DNA of 64,000 bases from Dryococelus australis. Taxonomy: Eukaryota > Arthropoda > Insecta > Phasmatodea > Phasmatidae. Location of the stretch: positions 60,874,777 to 60,938,776 of the forward strand of contig CM057002.1 of the NCBI GenBank assembly GCA_029891345.1. The letters are read 5' to 3'. Shown here one piece after another: positions 5,546 to 63,153 of the stretch (its first letter is position 1; the number at the start of each line of letters is the position of its first letter). Below the pieces are notes generated by a model. The model saw nothing but the letters and a program-made list of their open reading frames with translations. It made no database searches and was not told the origin of the DNA. The translations under genes were made by a program, and so were the position numbers.

Positions 5546-5721
5546 AAGTATACAGCATTTCTCCATTTACCGACAGCTTAAAAGTGACCTCTTTGGAACA
5601 CCTGGGTATAACTAACCTTACCACTGCGAAGCTCAGGTACATCGGTCTTGTTAGTGAAACAGCAATGTGGTCGCTCCGTAGAATGGAATAGTGACCAGTC
5701 ACGCATGACTGGGACGTCATC

Positions 5722-5879
5722 AGAACATATACTCCTGAGTAACAGTCGAGCACAGAACATATACTCCTGAGTAACTGTCGAGCACAGAACATATATTCCT
5801 GAGTAACAGTCGAGCACAGAACATATATTCCTAAGTAAATGTCGAGCACAGAACATATACTCCTGAGTAACAGTCGAGT
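5722..5879 (+). repeat. 32-bp tandem array, about 5 copies
   Basis: The unit AGAACATATACTCCTGAGTA plus about 12 more bases repeats at 5722, 5754, 5786, 5818 and 5850 with a few substitutions. It ends just before a G run (about 5889-5901) that abuts the Tc1-like pseudogene. The long minus-strand open frames here only read the repeat. Confidence 0.9.
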
Positions 5880-10430: not shown

Positions 10431-11020
10431 CTCCCTTTGATGTTACCTTGAAAACGATATTTTGTAACATGAGCACACCTTCCAGCGGGCATTTCCCTAT
10501 GCCAGACTCTTTCATAAGGATCTCGTTTTCTTCCCAACTTGAGTAGAAAGAACCGCTTCTTATTGGATGACAAATGCACACACGTGCCACTGAAACCTAG
10601 ATCCTCCTAGTTCACCACTCCGCTTATGCAGGAGCAAGAAGGAGGATCTGTATTGCGCAGTTCGGTATCATTCGGCCTACTTCGGTGACACTCGGCACGT
10701 ATTATTTTTTATTTCTGTGTTTAACGTAATTGTGATTTTTACACTCGAAGCCCGCGGACACGTCCACGAAAAGGATTGCTGCTCTTTGGAAAATAAACGG
10801 TTGAACCCACTGCATAGACTATTGTCTCTATTTCAGCTTGCAGGTATCTATCTGACAGAGGAACAGTTGTTATAATCAACAGGTGTCACCGGGAAACATG
10901 AATATTGGTGTAATGCCAAGTGATGGAGCCTGCAGTATCTGCAATCAACACAGCATTTGCGTGCTGACGGTTGTCTAGTCGGCCGGCGCTGAGCAACGAA
11001 TTCTAGACAGTCTATCGATG

Positions 11021-11275
11021 AATGAGTGAAGAGGTTTGGACGGCTCTTGACATCGAGGTCTTGAGAGCCGATGAGGGTGAAGCGAGGTGAGAATGGAGCA
11101 GCGCCGGAATGCAAGGGTGGGGTAAAAGGAATAACCCCGGAAAAACCCGCCGAGCAGCTGCATCGTCCGGCGCGACTCCCACATGCGAAAATCCGGGAGC
11201 GACTTAGCTGGGAATCGAACCCTGTTCGCATAGGTGGGAGGCGAGTAGTCTAACCACTACACCACCGCGGCCCTC
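11021..11275 (-). mobile_element. tRNA-derived SINE (family 1), full length with target duplication
   Basis: The minus-strand read starts with a tRNA-like head: GGTGTAGTGGTTAGACTA (A-box region) and GGGTTCGATTCCCAG (B box). The conserved body CGGATTTTCGCATG, CCGGACGATGCAGC and GGCGCTGCTCCATTC follows. Flanking direct repeats ACAGTCTATCG at about 11007-11017 and 11276-11286 look like a target-site duplication. It is a retroposed copy, not a functional tRNA gene. Confidence 0.85.
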
Positions 11276-15606: not shown

Positions 15607-15747
15607 CAGAAATAAACAGTGTACATCCTTTCAGAAATAAACAGTGTACATCCTTACAGAAATAAACAGTATACATCCTTAAAGAAATAAACAGTGTACA
15701 TCCTTACAGAAATAAACAGTGTACATCCTTACAGAAATAAACAGTAT
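15607..15747 (+). repeat. 25-bp tandem array, 5.6 copies
   Basis: The unit CAGAAATAAACAGTGTACAT plus CCTTA starts at 15607, 15632, 15657, 15682, 15707 and 15732 (partial). Variation is limited to a few positions, so the array is young. Confidence 0.95.
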
Positions 15748-35515: not shown

Positions 35516-36280
35516 TTCACCAACGAAACTCGCGAAGCACGAGGGAAGAGACAGATCGTCTGGAAAATTTCAAAATTTGAACGCCAGGAAGTTGATTTTG
35601 CTCGCCATAAAGTACATATTAATATGTTTCTTCATAACGATCCGTTTCTTTACTTGAGTCATATTTTTTTGTGGTACCTAGAAGAAGAAATGTTCAAAAC
35701 GTGTCATTGTAGGGCCTACAATTAGCAAGAATTTTGACTTTCTCGCAAAGGAAATACATGAACTTCTATCTGATGGCATTTAAAATTACGAGAGAAGAAA
35801 TATGTAAGTCAATCGCGGTAGGAAGAAAATTAGAAGCTAAGGGAGCGGCAATTTTCTAGACTCCGTATACCAAAAATTTAAAACAATTGTAGAAAGACTT
35901 AAAAAATGTTACCATAGTAACATACGTATAATAAATACATACATATAATAAACAATAGCTGTAATCTACTAAACGAAGACTTCTGAATAAATTGCCTTAT
36001 TTCTTATTTTTCATTAAATTAAAGTATTTATAGTGTTAAATAACAGTCATTGGACTATGTAAGTTTACTTTTATTGTAAAATGTTTTCACTTTAACTGTT
36101 AGGTTTGTTCGGGTCGCATACACGAAGTAACTGCTGTGAGTACTTTCCTTGTACAAAAAAAAAAGAGGTTTTGTTAAATCAGGAAAAAGTTTTCTGGCTC
36201 AAACAACTTAAGGGCGTTGCTTACCTGTCGCTTGAATTTCGTTGCAGTGTGTTCCAAATCCGCTTTTATTTTTACTATAC

Positions 36281-36379
36281 CGATTAACGTGTTCCCATTA
36301 TACCCATGTACGTGTTCCCATTATACCGATTAACGTGTTCCCATTATACCGATGTACGTGTTCCCATTATACCGATGTA
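36281..36379 (+). repeat. 23-bp tandem array, about 4 copies
   Basis: The unit ACGTGTTCCCATTATACCGA plus three bases is repeated. Units alternate GATTA and GATGT variants. Confidence 0.9.
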
Positions 36380-36559
36380 CGAAGAGAAAACAGACGACGG
36401 ACAAATTATACAATATAGACAACACACACATTATAAATACTATTCCCGAACCCTCTAACATAGCTTAAAATGGCTTTTTCACATTGCTGTATTTCAGAAA
36501 TTTACTGATCGCAAGTATGCATAACTATTACAGGACTCTGCTCTCAAATTTTGCTGTCG

Positions 36560-36980: not shown

Positions 36981-37109
36981 GCAAAACAGTTCTGGTTAGG
37001 TGGCCCCCTTAATAGGTTTATAAGGGTAATTCAATATTTGCTTGGTAGAGCCTAATAATTTTGAGGTGTTTATTTAGTTACTATAAACACTATAGGCCTA
37101 TGCGTGTGT

Positions 37110-37332
37110 AGACTGTTCACGGTAAAGTGAGCACTTTTTAAGGTCCTTTCAACTAATGAATATATCTTATTGCAGCCCCAGGCATTAAATTTTGAGGGTG
37201 CTGAAATGTATACACTGTGCTTATTGGTCACATTGCCACGTTTATATTAGAAAGCAGCAGGAAGATGGAAATTGGATGAAAATAAAAATTTAGAATGGCC
37301 TTAAAAAGTGCTCACTTTACCGTGAACAGCCT
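37110..37332 (+). mobile_element. MITE, 230-bp class
   Basis: Left AGACTGTTCACGGTAAAGTG then AGCACTTTTTAAGG. Right CCTTAAAAAGTGCTCACTTT then ACCGTGAACAGCCT. TA borders the right side. It ends directly next to the Academ-like element. Confidence 0.8.
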
Positions 37333-37335
37333 ATA

Positions 37336-37850
37336 ATAGTCTAGAGGGTAAGAGAGGAATTTTGCTAGAACAATGCATGTGTTCATAAAAAGGTGGCAAT
37401 TGGCATGGTGGTTTATTGGACCCTCTGAAGCATTTATAGGAACAGCCCCAATCGATATTCGCTTGTAAAGGGTTTGGGGAGTATTTGATAACTTGCAGTT
37501 GCATTAGTCGTCTCATACACATTCAAAACACAATATCTTAAAAATGAAGCGTCGCACTGGGAAAATACAAGACACGTAAAATGTTCTAAACATTCTGATA
37601 AAAAAATAGTTTCCTATACTTTTTCGTATTTCAAACGGTTTTCTCAATATTCGTGAAAAACTGCTCCAGTTGATCTGTGCACCAATGTCCTGATCGTCTT
37701 TCGGGCACCATGTCTTGCAAACAGTCAGATGTACAGAAAACCCACAAGAGACATAAATTATTAATAATCTAATTGTGAACATAAATGTATCTTGTACCGT
37801 TTACCGTATCTCTTACGGTTTAATATCTATGGACGAAAAACCATTTCATA
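37336..37850 (+). repeat. Left TIR of the Academ-like element
   Basis: About 515 bp, inverted copy at 43350-43866. Differences are mostly small indels and substitutions; the left copy lacks an eight-base stretch present near the right tip. Open frames inside it are incidental. Confidence 0.85.
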
Positions 37851-38605
37851 ACTGTATTTACGTAGTCCAACAATGACTTCCAGCTTCCTCGCAGACATGC
37901 TTGCAAGGGTTGAACATAGATGGCACCACTGAAGCACGCTTGCTAATCACTCTACGTAGGTAGTTGATGTGATGTGTGCAAAGTGAATTGTTCAAGTGGC
38001 CTATGTTGTGTGAACAAATGATAGTGAAAGGAGTGTTCTGCGATCGGAGAAGAGTAGGCGTGACGCGTAGAGAAAAAGCAACTTTCACACAGTAAGTTCT
38101 GTGTTGTTATAACCTTACTTCCAATTACTTTGTCCCAATATGTACCGATACAAATTTCCATAATCTAACGAAAATATGTTTTTGTCAACCCACGTGGATA
38201 GCTAAGTTTATCACGTTGTTTACATGAATTGTTAATCCACTTAGTTTGAAATTTTAAGGTTTATAGGATGTACTCCAGTTACGATAAATAATTTTTTGTT
38301 TTTAAAATAATGGGTTTGTTGGAAAACCAGATGTAAAGAAACATACACTTCCTTTAATAATTCGTGATTTTGACAGTTCTATATGCAATTTGCGAGTCGC
38401 TTTTGGGGACATGCGCAAAATTCTAAAATAACTCTACCGCATTTTTAGTGTATGATCAGAGTATTACATATTTTCAGTAATATGAACTTGTGTTTAAGGC
38501 TTGACATTCTTTACTGTTGTAGGTTTAAAAACATGTATTCCCTGTTTGTTGATGATTTATGTGCATTTACTCTTTCAGTTGGTGAAAATATATCTTTACA
38601 AAACA

Positions 38606-41600
38606 ATGGAGAGCAAAGCATTTCGTCTAGCGTATGTCTCAGATGAAGATATTCCAAGAAGATTGTCAGTTGACTGGAGCAAATGCATTGTTTGTCAGAA
38701 AGATACAGCTGAATATTTGATGTGTCCAGCACGTCACAAGGGTTTTGGGAAATCTGAAAGGGACTGTTACACAACATTTTCAGAACTGGCACAGGAACTT
38801 AAACATGTAGGTGAAATGCTTGTTCATATCAATACTGATATTTTGGATAATGGGTCCGGCATAGAGCAGACTACCCGGCAACATAAAGCTTTTTGTCATA
38901 AAAGTTGCAACAGATAATTTAACCGGAATCGATTACAAAGACTTAAAAAGAAACGTAAAGCTGAAGATTCTCACTTGGGGCCTTCAAGTCCTATAAAAAC
39001 ACGACGTGCAAGCGAACCACATAATAGTGAGAACTGTTTTTTTTCTGCGAACAACCACAGATGAGGGGAGAGTCTTTTCATCGCGTTATGACTTTGAAAC
39101 TGGAGTCAAATGTGAAAGAAGGTGCTAAGCTTTTGGGAGACAAATTTACTGTGAGAAAGCTGGGTGGAGGAGGAGATTTGTGAGTTCAGTTTGGCTCACT
39201 TTTACAATCGTGTGGCTAACCATCAGAATAATGTAACTAAAACAACACCCTTGCACAGAAGGAACATGTGGAGGCTATTGCTAGAGCATATTTGCTACTT
39301 TATATGGAAGAAACAAGAGACACAAATGACTCTACTCATCCTTTGTTTAAAATTTCAGATTTTTGCGCTATTTATTCTCAGCACATGGAAGATCTAGGAG
39401 TCGGAAGTTTCAGGTACTCACTCGACTAGGCTTCGAGATAGTCTTCTGAAGATTAACCCTGAGGGCTGGAGTTCCCAGGGTAAGGAGTGCGAACTTGCCT
39501 TTAAAAAAGATGTGGATGTTACTGTGAAAACAAGTGTTCGTGATTACGATGGGGAGGCCATTAACCTTGCAAAGGCTGCTCAAACTGAGTGGAAAGATAT
39601 TTTTGACCAATGCAAAAAAGGAAGTCATCCAAAACGTCTGTCACAGGAAGACCAAATTGCAAGTATACCGATATCTCTTCTTGCTCTTGTAAATATGATT
39701 ATATATGGACCAGGGATGACTAAGAATGCTGCAGAAAACCACAACAGGAATCAGGCAGTTCTCATAATATCACAGTTATAAGCCTACAATGCTGTGAAGA
39801 AATGTCCATATTCAAATGTATTAGACAGTTTGCGTACTACACAGCCTTGGTATTTGTATTGCCTATGAAAGACTCCGTATAATGCATTAAGATATAGCGG
39901 ACGAATTTCTTGCTATGTACAACGAACATAAATTAGTTTGTCCTTCAGGTCTTAAACATGATCTCTTTACAACAGTATCAATTGATAACATCGGCCATAA
40001 CCCATCGTCAAACACAGATATTAGTTGTTTCCATGGAACTGCCATTTCTGTTGTTCAACATCCAACACAATACAAACTTGAAAGAACTCGTTAACTGACC
40101 TCACCAAAAACTGAGAAAGGAAACAGAAGAGTCCAGCAACTACTCCCACTGTGCGCCAATGTGCCCCCTTGTTCGTGAGCATTAGCAGAGTATCCTGTCG
40201 ACCCCCTGAAGAAATATTGTCATGCGAAGTACCTCAATACACAGATCCAGTAGCTAAAAAATGGCTATATCATCTTTCTGTAGCAATGCATGATGCCTGC
40301 CAAAGTTGGGCTGCTTTTAACACAACATACAGTCGTAGATGCAATAAACTGATCACCCCAATGGAAGTTATGCCCTTGTTCACAGAGAAATCATGATGCT
40401 ACATAACATGAATGTAATTAAGGCAGTGGTGGAGCACTTAAACCCAGGACTGATACAATTTTTAGTAGCAGATTCTCCACTATATGCTCTCCTAAAGAAG
40501 ATCCAATTCACAATGGTTGATACCCATGGCGAGGAGAAATTATTTATTACAATGGATGGTTTGCAAATTAAACTCGCTGATATAAGGATGGCGGACAAGT
40601 GGCTTCAAGGAATTTGTTGGACACCTGAACTGGTTGATGATGGAGTCACCACTCAAGGAAAGGCAGATTATGTACTGAAAGCCTCTCATATAAAGAGATC
40701 CCGATATGCTCACGAAGTAACAGCTGCAGCCATACATATCCTCCAGCAGTTGGTTTATCAAGATCACAAAGAAAAAGACACAGATCTCATTTAGACATTC
40801 TCCGACTGGCATACCAATATGAGAGCTAAGCAGCCTATGTTCCAGTATTGGGACATTGTGCTCAAGTTAGAGCATTGTATTTTGACTCTGTTGCGATCTA
40901 TTAGGGAAGCTAATTTTCAGCTTTATGTGAACTCTCTTATTCATCTATGACCTTGGTTTTTGCACTTGATCATACCAACTATGCTAGGTGGCTTACTGTC
41001 CATATCCGAGACCTCAACCATATCGAGGACAAGCACCTAGATATTGCACAGGCTTTCAAAACTGGGGGATTTGTAGCATGGAAGACAATGCGACCATTCT
41101 CTGCCATTGCATTAGATCATGCTCATGATCAAATAAATTCTACGTTGAAGAGTGAGGGAGGAATAATGACTCACAGAGAAGCCAGATACACTTCGTAGGT
41201 TCATAGTGGCAGGCCCTGAAATCGCCAAGCTTTTAGAAGAATTTGGCAGAGTATCATCAGAAAATGTGAAAGCAGCAGCACTTACCATGAAAAGACTAAC
41301 CGTTTTCTGTCAAAGTTTAGGATAAACATCCAAACTTTAGTAAATACTTTACAAGAGGCTGGTAACCCTTTCTCTGAAAATTCTGGAGACTTGTACACCA
41401 TCGATACCAGGTCTTTTATGAGAAAATCTGTTGTAAAACAGTTTTAAGTATCGAGAAAGAAGGAGAAATTCAGTTTTCGTCATTTTTTGCAGAGAGTTTC
41501 GTAAGGTATTGAAAGGACATAATGGATCCACTGAAATTTAATAGATTCCCAACTTTCAATATGAAAGCTGTTCAAGAACAATGGAAAAGAGCACACAAAC

Positions 41601-43013
41601 CTTTGATACTGAGTAATGACTGTGCTCTTTTCAGTCAGTTGTACATCGCCTGCCAGACACACTCAGGAAATTTGGAAAACTTTTTCAGGGACAAAAATCA
41701 GCCTTATCCCCCATCCCTCTCTGTTGGTGGAGAGCCAAGAGCAACAAACAAATCTGATCTCCTTAAATGTGTTGCATTCCAGACTGTAGGTAGTGTTCAG
41801 TTTGAACCGAAAGAGGATACGAAAGTACTCGATGAAGCTGCCATTTTTCACATGCTAACCACGGATGCAACTCATACTTTCAATGAATAGACTGAACATG
41901 TTTTCATCCCATACATAGCAAGCCAACCTACAAATGTTGATCGCTTGGATGTTATTTGGGACGAGTATTCCTCATACAGTTTAAAGACATTCGCGCGAAC
42001 ATCTTGGAACTGAAAAAAAATTTCATGTCACAGACTCAGCCCCCATACAATTGGCATGACGTCCTTCAATGCGATGACAATAAGAAAGTTCTTTTTGCAC
42101 TTTTGTCAAAATCCATTTTTGAAAAATTATCAAATAATGGCAAAGAAATCTACACTACTTTGGCAGAACAGGTTCTGAGCAAAACAGATCGAACCGATTT
42201 GCAGGATCTCACCCCATGTTACTATGAAGAAGCAGACACGCGGATGCTGATTAAAACTGCTGATGCAGCAATTGCAGGGCACAAGCGGATCATGGTCAAG
42301 ACAATAGATACGGATGTTGTTGTTCTTTCTGTAGCTTTCTTCCAAGATATGGAGGTTGAGCAATTGTAGGTGGCCATAGGGGCAGGGAAGCATTTGAAGT
42401 ATTTGCCTCTTCACGAAATAGCAAATACTCTTGGATGTCCTAAGGCTTCTGCACTCCCTTGCTTTCATGCCTTTACAGGATGTGATAATGTGGGCTCCTT
42501 CGGTGGATGTGGCAAGAAGACTACAAGGGAAATGTGGGATGTTTACCTCGAGGCTACACAAAGCTTTCTTGCTCTTGCCAAAGGCTCAATAGAAGAAGCA
42601 TTCGATGGGCTACATTTGTAATACTGCTGTATGATAGATCCAGCAATGAAGTCTGTATTGACGATGCAAGACGCGCTTTGTTTGTGAAGAAAAATAGGCA
42701 AATAGAGAACATTCCACCTACTTCAGATGGACTTCGTTTACACACTCTTAGAGCTGCATATCAGGGAGGAGTTATATGGGACCATACACTCAAGCCTCGA
42801 CAAGGACAAGGTGATACCTCAAGGTGGGGCTGGAAGAAGTGCACAGAAAAGTGGTTGCCTGTATGGACGACAATGCCTGCAGCATCAAAATGTTACCGAG
42901 AATTAATTCGTTGCAGTTGCCAAGAGTGTGGTAGCCGCTGCAAGTGCGATCAAGCAGGACTTCCATGCACACAACTGTGTAGATGCGATGGGCTTTGCAA
43001 CGATGACGAATAA
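38606..43013 (+). pseudogene. Decayed transposase/nuclease gene of the Academ-like element
   Basis: One long gene now in many pieces. Piece 1 (ATG 38606 to 38917) has a putative zinc cluster: SKCIVCQKD, MCPARHK and CHKSC. Pieces at 39512-39781, 40393-40794 and 40947-41198 follow; the last has NYARWLTVHIRDL and FSAIALDHAHDQ, a block I recall from many arthropod and cnidarian multicopy proteins. Piece 41956-42369 carries acidic nuclease-like motifs EEADTRM (42226) and IDTDVVVL (42304). After one in-frame TAG (42367-42369), FHAFTGCDNVGSFGGCGKKT (42466) resembles the helix-two-turn-helix of XPG/FEN nucleases. The last piece ends with nine cysteines (CSC, C, CKC, C, CRC, C; from 42912). An intron acceptor-like TTTACTCTTTCAG at 38580 suggests an upstream exon. 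Many stops and frame changes make it non-functional. Confidence 0.75.
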
Positions 43014-43349
43014 ACCACAAATATATTTGTGATTATGAATTGATTAGATAATTTTAATATTGCTGTAGATTTTTTTATTATGTTTACTCTTTCAGTTTAG
43101 GTTTATTCCCCATTATTTAATGATTTAGATTGTTAACGAATGTATGATAAAACATGGAGCTTTGTTGGCTTCAGAACATATATAGTCATTAAATTTCGTA
43201 TAAAACGTTTAACTGAAATCTAAATTCACTGTATTTCATATGAAGTTCAGTTCATTGATGGTAGCAGTAGGCATTAATAGTAAGCAACGATCACTGACTG
43301 AGACAACTACCACATTGTACAACATATAAACATGTTAACACTAGTGTTT

Positions 43350-43866
43350 TGAAACGGTTTTTTGCCAATAACTATTAAGCCGTAAGAGATACGGTGAAAG
43401 GTACAATATACACTTTTGTTCACAATTCAATTATAAATATTTTTTCATTTTTATGTTTTCTGTACAATTGACTGTTTGTAAGATATGGCGCCCGAAAGAC
43501 GATCAGGACATTGGTGCACAGCTCAATTGGAGTAGTTTTTCGCGAATATTGAGGAAACTGTTTGAAATACGAAAAAAGTATAGGAAACTATTTTTTTTTT
43601 TTAACAGAACGTTTTGAAAATTTTATGTATCTCTTATATTTTCCCAGTGCGACGCTTCATTTTGGAGATATTGTGTTTTGAATGTGTATGAGACGACTAA
43701 TGCGACTGCTAGTTATCAAATGCTCCCCTAACCCTCTACAAGCGAATATCGATTGGCGCTGTTCCTATAGATGCTTCAGAGGGTCCAATAAACCACCATG
43801 CCAATTGCCACCTTTTTATGAAAAAATGCATAGTTTTAATGCTTACCCTCTAAGAGTCTAGACTAT
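43350..43866 (-). repeat. Right TIR of the Academ-like element
   Basis: Inverse of 37336-37850, with the tip TCTAGACTAT at 43857-43866. The inner end is near AACGGTTTTTTGCC. Confidence 0.85.
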
Positions 43867-44750
43867 AGGATTTCGTTGTAACTAATTATTATTATTATTA
43901 TTATTTTTTGTTTTTGTTTTTGCTATAGACGTAGTCCAGTTTAATTTTCTAGTATAAATAATATAATTGTATTAATTTAGCTTTATGAATGCAAGCAAAT
44001 CGCTAGGCAATTTTATTTATACTGAAATTTAAGTGCTTCGGACATAGCCAAAGCCAATACTCTCTCGTTATTTAAACACGGAACTTCAAAGTCTGAAATT
44101 AATCTTCTGAGCCTTTCAGTCATAGCGATAAATTTAATGTTTATGGGACGTCGCACAGGGAGTGGATATATTGCCTGTACAGCGTCCAATAAGAACTTTC
44201 CTAAATTGGCGGCAGACGCGATCCACACCGCTGTCTCACAACTCCAGTCAATAACATCGAACAACAAAAATACATTTTTTTTTATTGGCGTTCCGACGTA
44301 TGAGAGAGTTTAGTGCTGATATACGTACCCTTAAAATTAAGAAAATTTTTTTTCGTTGCATTGCCTAAAATCCTGTGTTAATTTTTCGCTGAAAGGATTA
44401 AGCAACCTCGGCCAAGGTGATACTATTTATGACGTGGAAATGGCTAAACTTTTAAGATAATAAACCACTTTATGATTTTAATATATTCTATTCACGGTTA
44501 CTACACTCTTTTAAATCAAACATTAAAAAAATAACCCCGTGTATGACGTGTTTGGTTTGTTCTAGATAAACCGTGTGTCTCATACATTTTATACTTTCGT
44601 TAACATAATAAAATCTTATTTTTGATCAAATTGAACTTTTATTTATATTTTTATCTACAATTTATAATATTTCATTGATAATTAATATTAATAAAACTAT
44701 GGATAAAACAGGTGTGTTGGTAATGACGATTAAAAATTGTTCTTATACAG

Positions 44751-46247: not shown

Positions 46248-46506
46248 GGCCTCGGTGGCTCGGCAGTTAGGGCGCTCGCCTCCCACCGTGGTGAACCAGG
46301 CTCGATCCCCAGCGGAGCAACTCTCCCGGATTTTCGCACGTGGGAATCGTGCCGGACGATGCCGCTTGTCGGTCGGTTTTCTCGGGGATCTCCTGTCCCC
46401 CCCCGCCTTTGCATTCTGTCGCTGCTCTGTACTCTCCTCGCTTCATCCTCATCGACTCTCAATACTCCGACGTTAACAGTCGGCCAAATTTCTCCACTCC
46501 ACTCGT
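46248..46506 (+). mobile_element. tRNA-derived SINE (family 1), plus
   Basis: Head GCCTCGGTGGCTCGGCAGTT, B box GGCTCGATCCCCAGC, body CCGGATTTTCGCACGTGGG and CCGGACGATGCCGC, tail TCATCCTCATCGACTCTC. The C run at 46398 is part of the body. Confidence 0.8.
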
Positions 46507-47705: not shown

Positions 47706-48589
47706 CGCAACTTGCACCGTCTCTAATGATCTCGCTGTCAGCTACCTACTGACAAAGAGTATGTTTCTGCGCACTCTGTTTCCCGTAGCATACCCGTTTA
47801 ATGCATGGATGATTTTGAATTCTATTCAGTCGATTGGTTGTTAAGGTCTGTCCCAATCTCTTCTCAGTTATAGGTTAAGTATAGGTATACTTAGAGAGCC
47901 AGTTGTTGTCCCAGTAGTTGGCCATGGTTGCCCAATCCCTCTCTGCCGCTATGCATGTATCCCAACATTTAGGCGTAAGGGGTTCGCCCTGAGACGCAAT
48001 TAGGTCCAGATCCTACCTCAGACGTGCATCTGACACTTAGAATTAGAGTAAATTAGGGGGAAAATCAGATAACACACAAATAAAATTACGCACAAAAATA
48101 TTAATTTACGCACAAAAATACGAATTTTCTATATCGTACATTGTCAGTAGTTACTATGAATCCTAAATCATGACGTGAAATGAATACGATATTACGACGC
48201 GAAAACGAAAAATTCCTGCAACAGGGTCGAAAGCGAGCCTTTAACATTCAGTTTAGGTAGAAAGTGTCTTACATATTTCCCACTTGATATTGCAAAACGA
48301 GTCAGTCGAATTCCGCCGCATTCTATATAAGATAGTAAGTAGTCGCTGTTCAAACCTTACGATCAAATGCAACTTTCACGAGGCTGACATAGTAAGATTG
48401 AAGTCCTGCTTCAAGTCTGACACACGTGTCAATTAGCAAACTCAAGCAATATTTTGTGAGAACACCTGTCCTGCCAAAGACTGTCCTGCCTGGACGATTT
48501 ATTTTTCGTCCCGTCAGCTGGTGAAATGTGTGATATCTACAATTTTCTGGAGTGCGATTAAAGGCTGCTAATATGGGGTTGGCGGGTTT

Positions 48590-48702
48590 ACAGAACTACA
48601 TGATGTTTGTTTACAGAACTACACGACGTTTGTTTACAGAACTACAAGACGTTTGTTTACAAAACTACCAGACGTTTGTTTACAGAACTACAAGACGTTA
48701 AT
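48590..48702 (+). repeat. 23-bp tandem array, about 5 copies
   Basis: The unit ACAGAACTACAAGACGTTTG plus TTT starts at 48590, 48613, 48636, 48659 and 48682. Confidence 0.95.
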
Positions 48703-51400: not shown

Positions 51401-51810
51401 AGGCTGTCCGCGATAAATGTGAGCCCTTTCGAAACACCTGTTTGAGTTCTACTTGTGTTCACATTGTGTATTCTTTCGCCACGTGTAAAATTAGAATTCC
51501 GTGGACCCCGATCACCGTATTCGTGCGTTGGTCAAGTGAAACCGTGGAATTGTTAGAAAAGTAAATATTTTATAAATTTGCTCGTTCTTACGCCTATATG
51601 AATTTTAAAAAACCACAAAGAAATGATATGATTTCAGTAATCACAAATGTTTACCTGACTATTTTTATTCAAAGTTAGGAGATGGAACTATTTTTCCTGC
51701 TGTCGCGCAAACTTTACTGGGCGTACACAGGGGCCGGTCAATGATCCCGCTAAAATACGTGCAGGCAGAGGCACAGGCTCTATTCAAAGGTTGCTTTCAA
51801 AAGCGCTTAT
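51401..51810 (+). mobile_element. MITE, 420-bp class, 3' TIR lost
   Basis: Begins AGGCTGTCCGCGATAAATGT and carries the usual interior. Its right end stops at CAAAAGCGCTTAT, directly joined to the next copy. Confidence 0.7.
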
Positions 51811-51811
51811 T

Positions 51812-52239
51812 GGTTATTCGCGGTAAAATGAGCACTTTTGAAAGCGCTGCTCAAGATCTACTTGTACGCACGTTGTGTATTTTCCCACCTTATGTAACAT
51901 TAACATTGCCATGGGCCTCATCACATTATTCATGCGTCGGTCAGGTGAAACTCGGAAATTATTAGAAAAGTAAATATTTTACAAATCTGGTAATTTTTAC
52001 ACTCCGGTGCAGTAAAAAAAAAATAGGAAGCATAAAAAAATTGTTTAAGTTATCACAAACGGACACCTAACACTTTTTCATTTCACGTTAATATGTGAAA
52101 CTACTTTCCAATCATCGTTACCAACTTTATTGGGCGCATGTCACTCAGTGCGCACGTTAAAATATATGCAGGTAGGAACAGTGACGTTTTTCTAAAGTTG
52201 GTTTTAAAAAGTGCTCACTGTATCGTGAACCGCCTTTAG
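51812..52239 (+). mobile_element. MITE, 420-bp class, head-to-tail with the previous copy
   Basis: Begins GGTTATTCGCGGTAAAATGA and ends AAGTGCTCACTGTATCGTGA then ACCGCCT. Same orientation as 51401. Confidence 0.75.
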
Positions 52240-59604: not shown

Positions 59605-60019
59605 AGGCTGTTCGCGATAAAGTGAGCACTTAAAATCAACCTTAGAGATAAAAAAGTCACTGTCACTGCTTGCACCACTAACTGGTGCACTGAGTGACAT
59701 TCACCCAGTAAAGTTGGTAATGATGGATGGAAAATAGTTCCAAAATCTAACGTCGAATAAAAAGTGTTGAGAATCATTTCTGACAACTTAAATTATTTAT
59801 TTTTTTTTCAGTTTTTTAATGCATCAGTGTGACAAAATTAGCATATTTATAAAATATTTGCTTTTCTAATAATTTTACAGTTTCACTTGACCTACGAATG
59901 AGCAAAGTGATGATGCCCTTGGCAATGTTAATTTTACATAAGGTGGAATAATACACAACGTGCATACAAGTAGATCTTAAACAGGGCTTCCAAAAGTGCT
60001 CATTTTACCGTGAACAGTC
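59605..60019 (-). mobile_element. MITE, 420-bp class
   Basis: Left AGGCTGTTCGCGATAAAGTG. Right AAAGTGCTCATTTTACCGTG then AACAGTC. The interior is reversed relative to 62737. Confidence 0.8.
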
Positions 60020-60024
60020 GATAT

Positions 60025-60560
60025 CAAATTATTTGTCTGTGCGGCAGTGTACACATAAGGGAAACAGGCCGGTCATTATCCATCCGTGTCAAGGAACACA
60101 AGAAGGACACCAAGAAGTGTGAAAGAAAAATCCAAACTAGCTTAACACGCCTAGTCAAATAATCATAAGATTATGTGGAAAAATTCTGCGCCCATAGCCA
60201 AAGAGCAGAATTGGGGGGGGGGGGGGGGGGAGGGATTAAAGAATTGGCTTTCATCAATTGCAATAGTAATGTCATACGTCAACAGAGCGTAGAATTAAAA
60301 GCTAATATGTACAAAATGAATCATTCCTCTTCAAAACAGACCTGGATTTCCACTCCATAGTACCTACATCCCATAGGCTGCCTCTCGGCCCAATCAGCAA
60401 GCTCTCTCCCAAGCACCACCAATCAGAGACTACCTGCCCTCCAGTTGGTGGGCTCGGAAGAAAGCCATAATCGTATGTAAACTCCCTGTTTCCCACCTCA
60501 ACTCTGTTTACTGCGATTGTTCTTCCAGTATTTCACCCGGAGAAAGGGACAGAATCCAAA
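60025..60560 (+). pseudogene. Possible GIY-YIG endonuclease remnant (Penelope-like)
   Basis: 60060-60160 translates to ETGRSLSIRVKEHKKDTKK, the conserved middle of GIY-YIG domains (TGRSL...R..EH) as found at the C-terminus of Penelope-like retroelements. The tyrosine motif before it is not readable. A 17-base G run at 60213 and several stops follow. A looser open stretch reaches about 60560. The reverse transcriptase is not visible, so the class is inferred from a single motif. Confidence 0.4.
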
Positions 60561-61504
60561 CCCCGAAACTTCGTGAAGACTTAATTATTTCTTTGTGGCT
60601 CTGTGTACTGTGTTGGTTTATCTCTCTGGTTATTTTTTTTCGTAGTGTTGATTTATTTGGTTTTATAATCCGACAAGGAATACTTTCCGTGACTTGTAAT
60701 TCACCGTGTTTTCGTTTTATTTTCGCATTGTTTTGAATTTTCTTTATTGTTCAGCTGTGAACACTGACATTGGGGCTTTTATTGCTCTGTTTTGTTCACT
60801 TTTGTGATGTTTTGTTTTCGTCATAGTGTTGTCTTTTCTTTTGGTTTGCTTTTGTTGCCTGTCCTGTTTTGCAATAATAAGTCGTTCGTGCGTCTTTTTG
60901 TCGTTTCAATATTCTATTGGCAAGGAAACCGCTTTCCCTAATTAGCTGTCTGTGGTGTTGTAATAACACGAACTCACCATTGCCATTAAACTTCAAATAT
61001 AAAAGTACTAGATCAGTTTTAAAAATAGATCAAGATTAAACATTAAAGTTTTTATTATTTTTTATAAATAAATAACTACTAAATAAGTTAATCCAATTAT
61101 TAAAAAAAAATTAAGACACGGAGAGTGGTTTTGCGAACAATGAAAAAAAAAAAAATCATCACAGAAGTGAGAACAGAACAGTTCTGTAAAAGTACTTGAG
61201 GGTGACACCAGCTACATGCAAGGTCTGCTGATGTTTGATCAGTACTTAGGCTCTACACTCTCGCTGCACACAGCAGGAACCAACAACATCCTCTGAGCCG
61301 GGGTAACAGAACGCATAACGACCCCACACACGTGACGTGAGGGTAAATGCGGAAGTATGTTTCACTTGTTAATATAAAAACTAGATAACAACCCGCTATA
61401 CTCACATACTGCCGTTGAACTTCCATCGATTTTGTGTGCTGAAATCGCTGCCTCATCCGGAATTACCACAGATACGTAAATCGCTGATTCAATTTAGTGC
61501 GTGA
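60561..61504. other. Nothing recognised
   Basis: T-rich to about 60960, then A-rich with poly-A runs near 61101 and 61142. Short frames only. Confidence 0.5.
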
Positions 61505-61752
61505 GTGAAGATATCTGGGAGGCTCTTAGCAGCGAGGTCTTGAGAGCCGATGACGGTGATGAGGCGAGTATGGAACGGTGCCGGAATGAAAGGGCGGAGG
61601 AAACGGGAAATCCTCGAGGAGACACGCCGACCAATCGCATCGTCCGATACGATTCCCACGTGCGAAAATCCAGGAGCGAACTCGCCGGGAATCGAACCGA
61701 GTTCGCCGTGGTGGCAGAAGAGCGCTCTATCCACTGCATCTCCGTGGCTCAT
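61505..61752 (-). mobile_element. tRNA-derived SINE (family 1), minus
   Basis: The minus strand carries a B box GGTTCGATTCCCGGC, then TCCTGGATTTTCGCACG, TCGGACGATGCGATTGG and the tail CATCACCGTCATCGGCTCTC. Confidence 0.8.
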
Positions 61753-62527: not shown

Positions 62528-62736
62528 TCAGAGAAGTTACAACACAACAGCCGTGTAACCGTGCTTCAGGGTAACACACGCCATATTTCTGTACCAGCAG
62601 CAGAATATTTTATTAATTTATTACTATGTGCTGTCTTTTGCAGAGACGATCCAAATGTTGCTGAAGTTATCCTGTTGATATAACTGTATGGTTTGTAGGA
62701 CGAACAGAATACTCTGCTGTAGGAACTATATTCATA

Positions 62737-63153
62737 AAGGTCGTTCAAGTTAAAATGGGTACTTTTGAAAGCCCTTCTTACAATCTACTTGTATGCACGT
62801 TGTGTATTCTTCCTCCTCATATTAAATTAACATTGGCATGGGCCCCATCACTTTATTCATACGCCGTTCAAGTAAAAGTGTGAGATTATTAGGAAAATAA
62901 ATATTTTTCAAATCCTCTTAATTTTAATACGTTGATGTATTTAAAAAAAAAAATAGTAAGTGAAAGAAATATTTTAAGTTATCACACCTAACACCTTTTA
63001 TTCGACGTTAAGATATGGAACTACTTTCTATACATCGTTACCTACTTTACTGGACGAATGTCACTCAGCGGCCATATTAAATTGTATGCAGTTAGGGCAG
63101 CGGCTTTTTCCTAAGGTTCATTTTAAAAGTGCTCACTTTATCGCGAACAGCCT
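62737..63153 (+). mobile_element. MITE, 420-bp class
   Basis: Left AGGTCGTTCAAGTTAAAATG. Right AAGTGCTCACTTTATCGCGA then ACAGCCT. Full interior present. Confidence 0.8.

Follow-up and report, generated by a model that had tools for sequence, protein, structure and literature searches.

Academ DNA transposons carry an XPG nuclease together with a cysteine zinc finger. In the passages of PMC10045372 drawn on here, AcademX elements are described with target-site duplications of 3 or 4 bp and AcademH elements with duplications of 9 or 10 bp, and the length of the duplication seems to be related to the encoded nuclease and helicase. Going by the excerpted text of two other sources, Academ belongs to the superfamilies whose transposase is of the DDD/E type (PMC9587614), and a RecQ helicase has been linked with it (PMC3627910). 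An element of this type is to be expected, since excerpts report that every arthropod in one survey had Academ (PMC6327564) and that curated Academ elements of bivalves average 5,565 bp (PMC10294476). A limited literature search found no paper that treats Academ, transposon and XPG jointly and, among the matches listed and in the portions of text they gave, the term AcademX in PMC10045372 only.

The element described here lies in a 64,000-nucleotide stretch of Dryococelus australis DNA, hereafter the window, and is probably a dead Academ-type DNA transposon with long TIRs, from an AcademX-like lineage and one of several related families in this genome. Its ends were set by alignment with sister copies, which gives a span of 37337-43865 (6,529 bp); the features are collected in Table 1. 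With both ends of five copies placed side by side, the tip reads TAGTCTAGA or is close to it. In the window, the inverted arms measure about 515 bp and pair in ungapped blocks at 37366-37572/43632-43838 (93% identity), 37620-37756/43440-43576 (87%) and 37755-37852/43346-43443 (83%), and additionally share a perfect block of 25 nt. The earlier note had reported inverted arms of about this length with matching tips; the arms stand, but the outermost base that it assigned to the tip is flank according to the sister copies, which fix the left boundary at TAGTC. Tips reading ATAGTC with ATN duplications were also considered, and were dropped after both ends of the five copies had been aligned. A direct repeat (38547-38580/43064-43097) lies within the element.

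Table 1. Features of the transposon copy in the window (window coordinates).
Feature	Position	Strand	Basis or remark
Left target-site copy, TAA	37334..37336		boundary from sister copies
Left terminal inverted repeat, tip TAGTCTAGAGGGTAAG	37337..37852	+	arm comparison and sister copies
Site of ~770-bp internal deletion relative to sister copies	38179..38183		sister-copy alignment
Gene piece, N-terminal cysteine/histidine cluster (C-x2-C ... H-x3-C)	38606..38914	+	ends in TAA
Gene pieces with LLALVNMIIYGP block	38918..39778	+	shifting frames
Site of ~87-bp deletion relative to sister copies	39827..39829		sister-copy alignment; coding in L012
Middle-domain gene pieces, putatively DDE-like; VADSPLYALLKKIQ; FALDHTNYARWL; FSAIALDHAH	39891..41195	+	
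Nuclease-like domain, first half (LDEAAI, RLDVIWDEY)	41513..42013	+	one in-frame TAG
Nuclease-like domain, second half (EEADTR, DTDVVVL, FTGCD...GKKT)	41941..42618	+	one in-frame TAG
C-terminal part, nine-cysteine tail (CSCQECGSRCKC...PCTQLCRCDGLC)	42489..43010	+	
Right terminal inverted repeat	43346..43865	-	arm comparison and sister copies
Right target-site copy, TAG	43866..43868		sister-copy alignment; one mismatch to TAA

The host assembly (3.415 Gb in 646 contigs) contains at least 42 matches to the left arm (40 of 44 candidates scored), and 20 stretches around arm matches were fetched for comparison. Coding sequence of the gene adjoins the arm in 13 of these 20 loci. The gene is enclosed by an inverted pair of arms at four further loci outside the window (L009-L012); these other complete copies are 6,237, 7,149, 7,399 and 9,369 bp long, and an extra stretch of about 1.8 kb inside the gene of L011 partly explains its greater length. 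The match in L017 is internal and mostly noncoding (window 38434-38656). Blocks aligned to the window copy are 71-92% identical, mostly 79-88%, and the family is therefore old.

Perfect 3-bp duplications flank four of the five complete copies (ACA/ACA in L009, ATA/ATA in L010, TTA/TTA in L011 and TCA/TCA in L012), with a single mismatch in the window copy, and a 4-bp flank match was found in none of the five. The duplication in L010 carries less weight because the left flank of this copy is an AT repeat. By our own arithmetic, three bases would match by chance in about 2% of cases per copy in AT-rich DNA, so four matches in five copies are not the product of chance, even when some choice of boundary is allowed for. 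As judged by eye, L012 sits in an irregular tandem array, in which one other unit reads ATTCAATAG and two more read CTCAATATT and TCCAATATT; deleting one TCA turns the L012 site into ATCAATAG. This comparison is only suggestive, and may hint at the sequence before insertion.

The arms, the gene and the 3-bp target duplications form one mobile unit, because arms and gene co-occur in other copies, the duplications lie at the outer ends, and a second family, represented by L049, shows the same arrangement. The earlier note had proposed a TIR transposon with a directly linked gene, and both points are borne out by the co-occurrence in the window and the four other complete copies, together with the duplications. 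In L049, 11 of the 17 window query pieces find matches at 31-58% identity, with their order kept. This element is 5,639 bp long, with ends TAATGGGGCGGATAAG and TAGTGGGGCGGATAAG; its tips, TARTGGGGCGGATAAG (TARTGGGG), are related to those of the window family, and its flanks are TAT/TAT, a 3-bp duplication with no 4-bp match. An expanded AT repeat with a large inverted duplication lies inside its right arm (L049:5613-5994).

Gene sequence of this kind is abundant in the assembly. The middle gene piece has at least 149 matches (150 of 268 candidates scored), the nuclease piece at least 134, in about 130 separate places by our own count (150 of 315 candidates scored), and the nuclease piece of L049 at least 122 (111 of 1158 candidates scored); in these totals some places are counted repeatedly, and many of the matches are fragments or contain stops. 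Among IMG/VR, GTDB contigs, phages and plasmids, no relative was confirmed.

Comparison with the sister copies also changes the picture of the window copy, whose architecture the earlier note had called intact. Twelve of the 20 loci (L009 included) match all or part of a 770-bp stretch of L009, and 12 of 20 (L012 included) match a 100-bp stretch of L012 around the second gap; both stretches are missing from the window. L014 and L015 extend 116-142 bases into a segment that the window lacks. Since segments of about 770 bp and about 87 bp present in sister copies are gone, the window copy is internally deleted as well as decayed. The decay itself had been recognized from the start, and is seen in multiple frame changes and in-frame stops along the coding pieces. 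The window copy is no longer able to make the encoded protein.

The motifs that had been listed for this gene are all found on the + strand in the order given: the N-terminal cysteine cluster, NYARWL/FSAIALDHAH, EEADTR, DTDVVVL, FTGCD...GKKT and the nine-cysteine tail. From the sister copies and the window together, the protein runs from C-x2-C...H-x3-C modules through a middle domain and a nuclease-like domain to the tail. Sister copies have a second C-x2-C...H-x3-C module, which is broken in the window (38918..39778). The residue pattern of these cysteine fingers, two N-terminal modules and the nine-cysteine tail, recurs in several copies, and we regard them as putative zinc modules; the tail presumably resembles the Zn3Cys9 (CXC-type) modules. 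The middle domain has VDNIDHNPSS and VADxPLYALLKKIQ followed by conserved glutamates, with DNIGHNPSS in the window as against DNIDHNPSS in the sisters. The candidate DDE motifs VDNIDHNP and VADxPLY and the downstream glutamates were picked out by eye in the sister copies and, in part, in L049, which has TFNQPLF for the second motif. With these motifs seen in two families, the middle domain may be DDE-like, with a putative catalytic role. The third domain is marked by LDGAAI, DVIWDEY, HEEADTR, DTDVVVLA and FTGCD...GKKT.

The FEN nucleases have their acidic residues in the order D, D, E-x-D, D-x-D, GCD, and the third domain has seven acidic positions in the same order. In a 19-row alignment, with gapped rows left out at each position, positions 1 to 7 are acidic in 12/16, 17/17, 13/18, 10/18, 15/18, 16/18 and 15/17 rows, and the acidic share across the domain is 607/5510 (11%); these seven positions were chosen by motif, and copies of a single family make up most of the rows. 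Among the top 16 columns, ten others are equally acidic, and the fourth position (EEAD) falls outside the top 16. When six family representatives were compared, L049 lacked the D-x-D pair and the fourth acid, and L052 the first and fourth acids; L050 and L053 lack the first acid, and L053 has Q at the third position. These losses may be due in part to the fact that all rows are decayed genes.

In profile comparison with a seven-sequence XPG-type set (FEN/EXO1/GEN1/XPG), the FTGCD...GKKT block aligns in register with the GCDY...GIG helix-hairpin block of those enzymes. An 18-row profile scored 25.4 (E 0.018, HHsearch probability 2.5%), and a six-row profile scored 29.2 (E 0.005, probability 6.9%), the shuffle controls covering the 18-row set only. 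Column shuffles of that set reached 25.4 in 0 of 60 trials (top 24.4) and in 0 of 250 (top 22.7), and the reversed set scored 16.9. Removing the GCD block leaves an 18-column alignment that scores 15.7. When an HMM was built from the seven XPG-type sequences, its best E against the 18 rows was 0.17, and hhalign against four archaeal FEN sequences only gave a probability of 0.8%. No Pfam match at the curated cut-off was obtained with eight pieces from the window, four from L049, two from sister copies and nine alignment members, and PDB searches with single pieces, L049 and a nine-row alignment returned no XPG match. AlphaFold, run on one 226-aa read-through of the window as a single sequence, was uninformative (mean pLDDT 37.7). 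Together this leaves the XPG-like identity put forward in the earlier note plausible but not proven: the acid pattern and the GCD helix-hairpin block speak for it, and the Pfam and PDB searches and the HHsearch probabilities of 2.5-7% speak against it. As in FEN1, EXO1, GEN1 and XPG, the acidic residues keep their order and pair spacing and a GCD helix-hairpin block is present; unlike in those enzymes, the spacer lengths differ, HMMER similarity is not significant, and the domain is fused to a putative transposase.

We hypothesize that the gene product would act as the transposase, with its N-terminal zinc modules binding the arms of about 0.5 kb. The middle DDE-like (RNase H-like) domain would excise the element and join it to the target with a 3-bp stagger. 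We speculate that the XPG/FEN-like metal nuclease and the nine-cysteine C-terminal zinc module may process the non-transferred strand or the flaps left by excision or insertion.

Of the described lineages, AcademX is the closest. The likeness, drawn from published descriptions rather than from compared reference sequences, covers a TIR DNA transposon with 3-bp duplications and cysteine modules, and a nuclease-like domain, whose XPG identity is weakly supported here, beside a probable DDE domain. The 3-bp duplications and the TIR-gene linkage agree with the AcademX features in the five complete copies and L049, apart from the one mismatch in the window. Complete copies here are 6.2-9.4 kb long, and L049 is 5.6 kb. 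An AcademH-type element would share the superfamily name, but its duplications are 9-10 bp and it is described with a helicase in the passages of PMC10045372 at hand, neither of which is seen here, and we consider this assignment very improbable. No helicase family appears among the Pfam matches of the eight window and four L049 pieces, all of which come from decayed copies; the RecQ helicase mentioned for Academ in the excerpt of PMC3627910 likewise has no counterpart seen here.

Other readings overlap with one another, and their odds need not sum to one. That the downstream acidic domain of a DDE transposon is some other metal-binding or structural domain, outside the XPG fold, would fit the Pfam and PDB searches, the weak hhalign and HMMER scores and the uninformative fold prediction; the acid pattern and the in-register helix-hairpin match count against it, and we hold it to be doubtful. 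Rather unlikely is a distinct, unnamed TIR superfamily with a FEN-like nuclease and 3-bp duplications, whose transposase would show no closer affinity with Academ than with other DDE superfamilies. The failure of window, L049, sister-copy and alignment sequences to match Pfam at the cut-off would suit such a superfamily, but AcademX is described with this very combination of a nuclease-like domain, cysteine modules and a 3-bp duplication. Slightly less probable again is the broader claim that these abundant transposases (the nuclease piece in about 130 places), with their DDE-like domain, divergent FEN-like domain and nine-cysteine tail, constitute a superfamily separate from Academ. Arm or near-arm sequence stands alone in four of the 20 loci (L018, L022, L024, L027), as might be the case if arms and gene were unrelated neighbours, with the relic of a host gene caught inside a fold-back or nested repeat. 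Truncation can explain these loci, as can the limits of the fetched stretches, which may have clipped some of them, and the repeated co-occurrence of arms and gene and the duplications that border complete copies make mere neighbourhood scarcely credible. The element most probably represents a new family within Academ, a type already known, and is placed there by the AcademX descriptions; that it is a new kind of element is less likely.

A large protein family without a Pfam match above cut-off is thus tied, in two separate families, to transposon ends and a 3-bp duplication, and such proteins can therefore be annotated as transposases and not as host genes. The copies also provide sequence material for testing the role of a flap-nuclease-like domain in transposition.

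Several smaller features were observed elsewhere in the window. A frame of 175 aa on the minus strand (1933-2460) has, by eye, the look of a leucine-rich repeat with a cysteine cap, and had no Pfam match at E 0.1. Short-period tandem arrays lie at 36276-36381 and 48586-48699 (both 23 bp), 5721-5878 (32 bp) and 15607-15745 (25 bp). A SINE- or MITE-like repeat of about 120 bp occurs at 2259-2341, 11020-11147, 46377-46499 and 61502-61618 (75-85%), and also inside L010, and related units of about 200 bp are present in both orientations at 51808-52019, 59812-60034 and 62724-62924. A short, MITE-looking element (37109-37333) lies two bases away from the transposon's left target copy; its inverted ends are 40 nt long (93%), and both arms end in TA.
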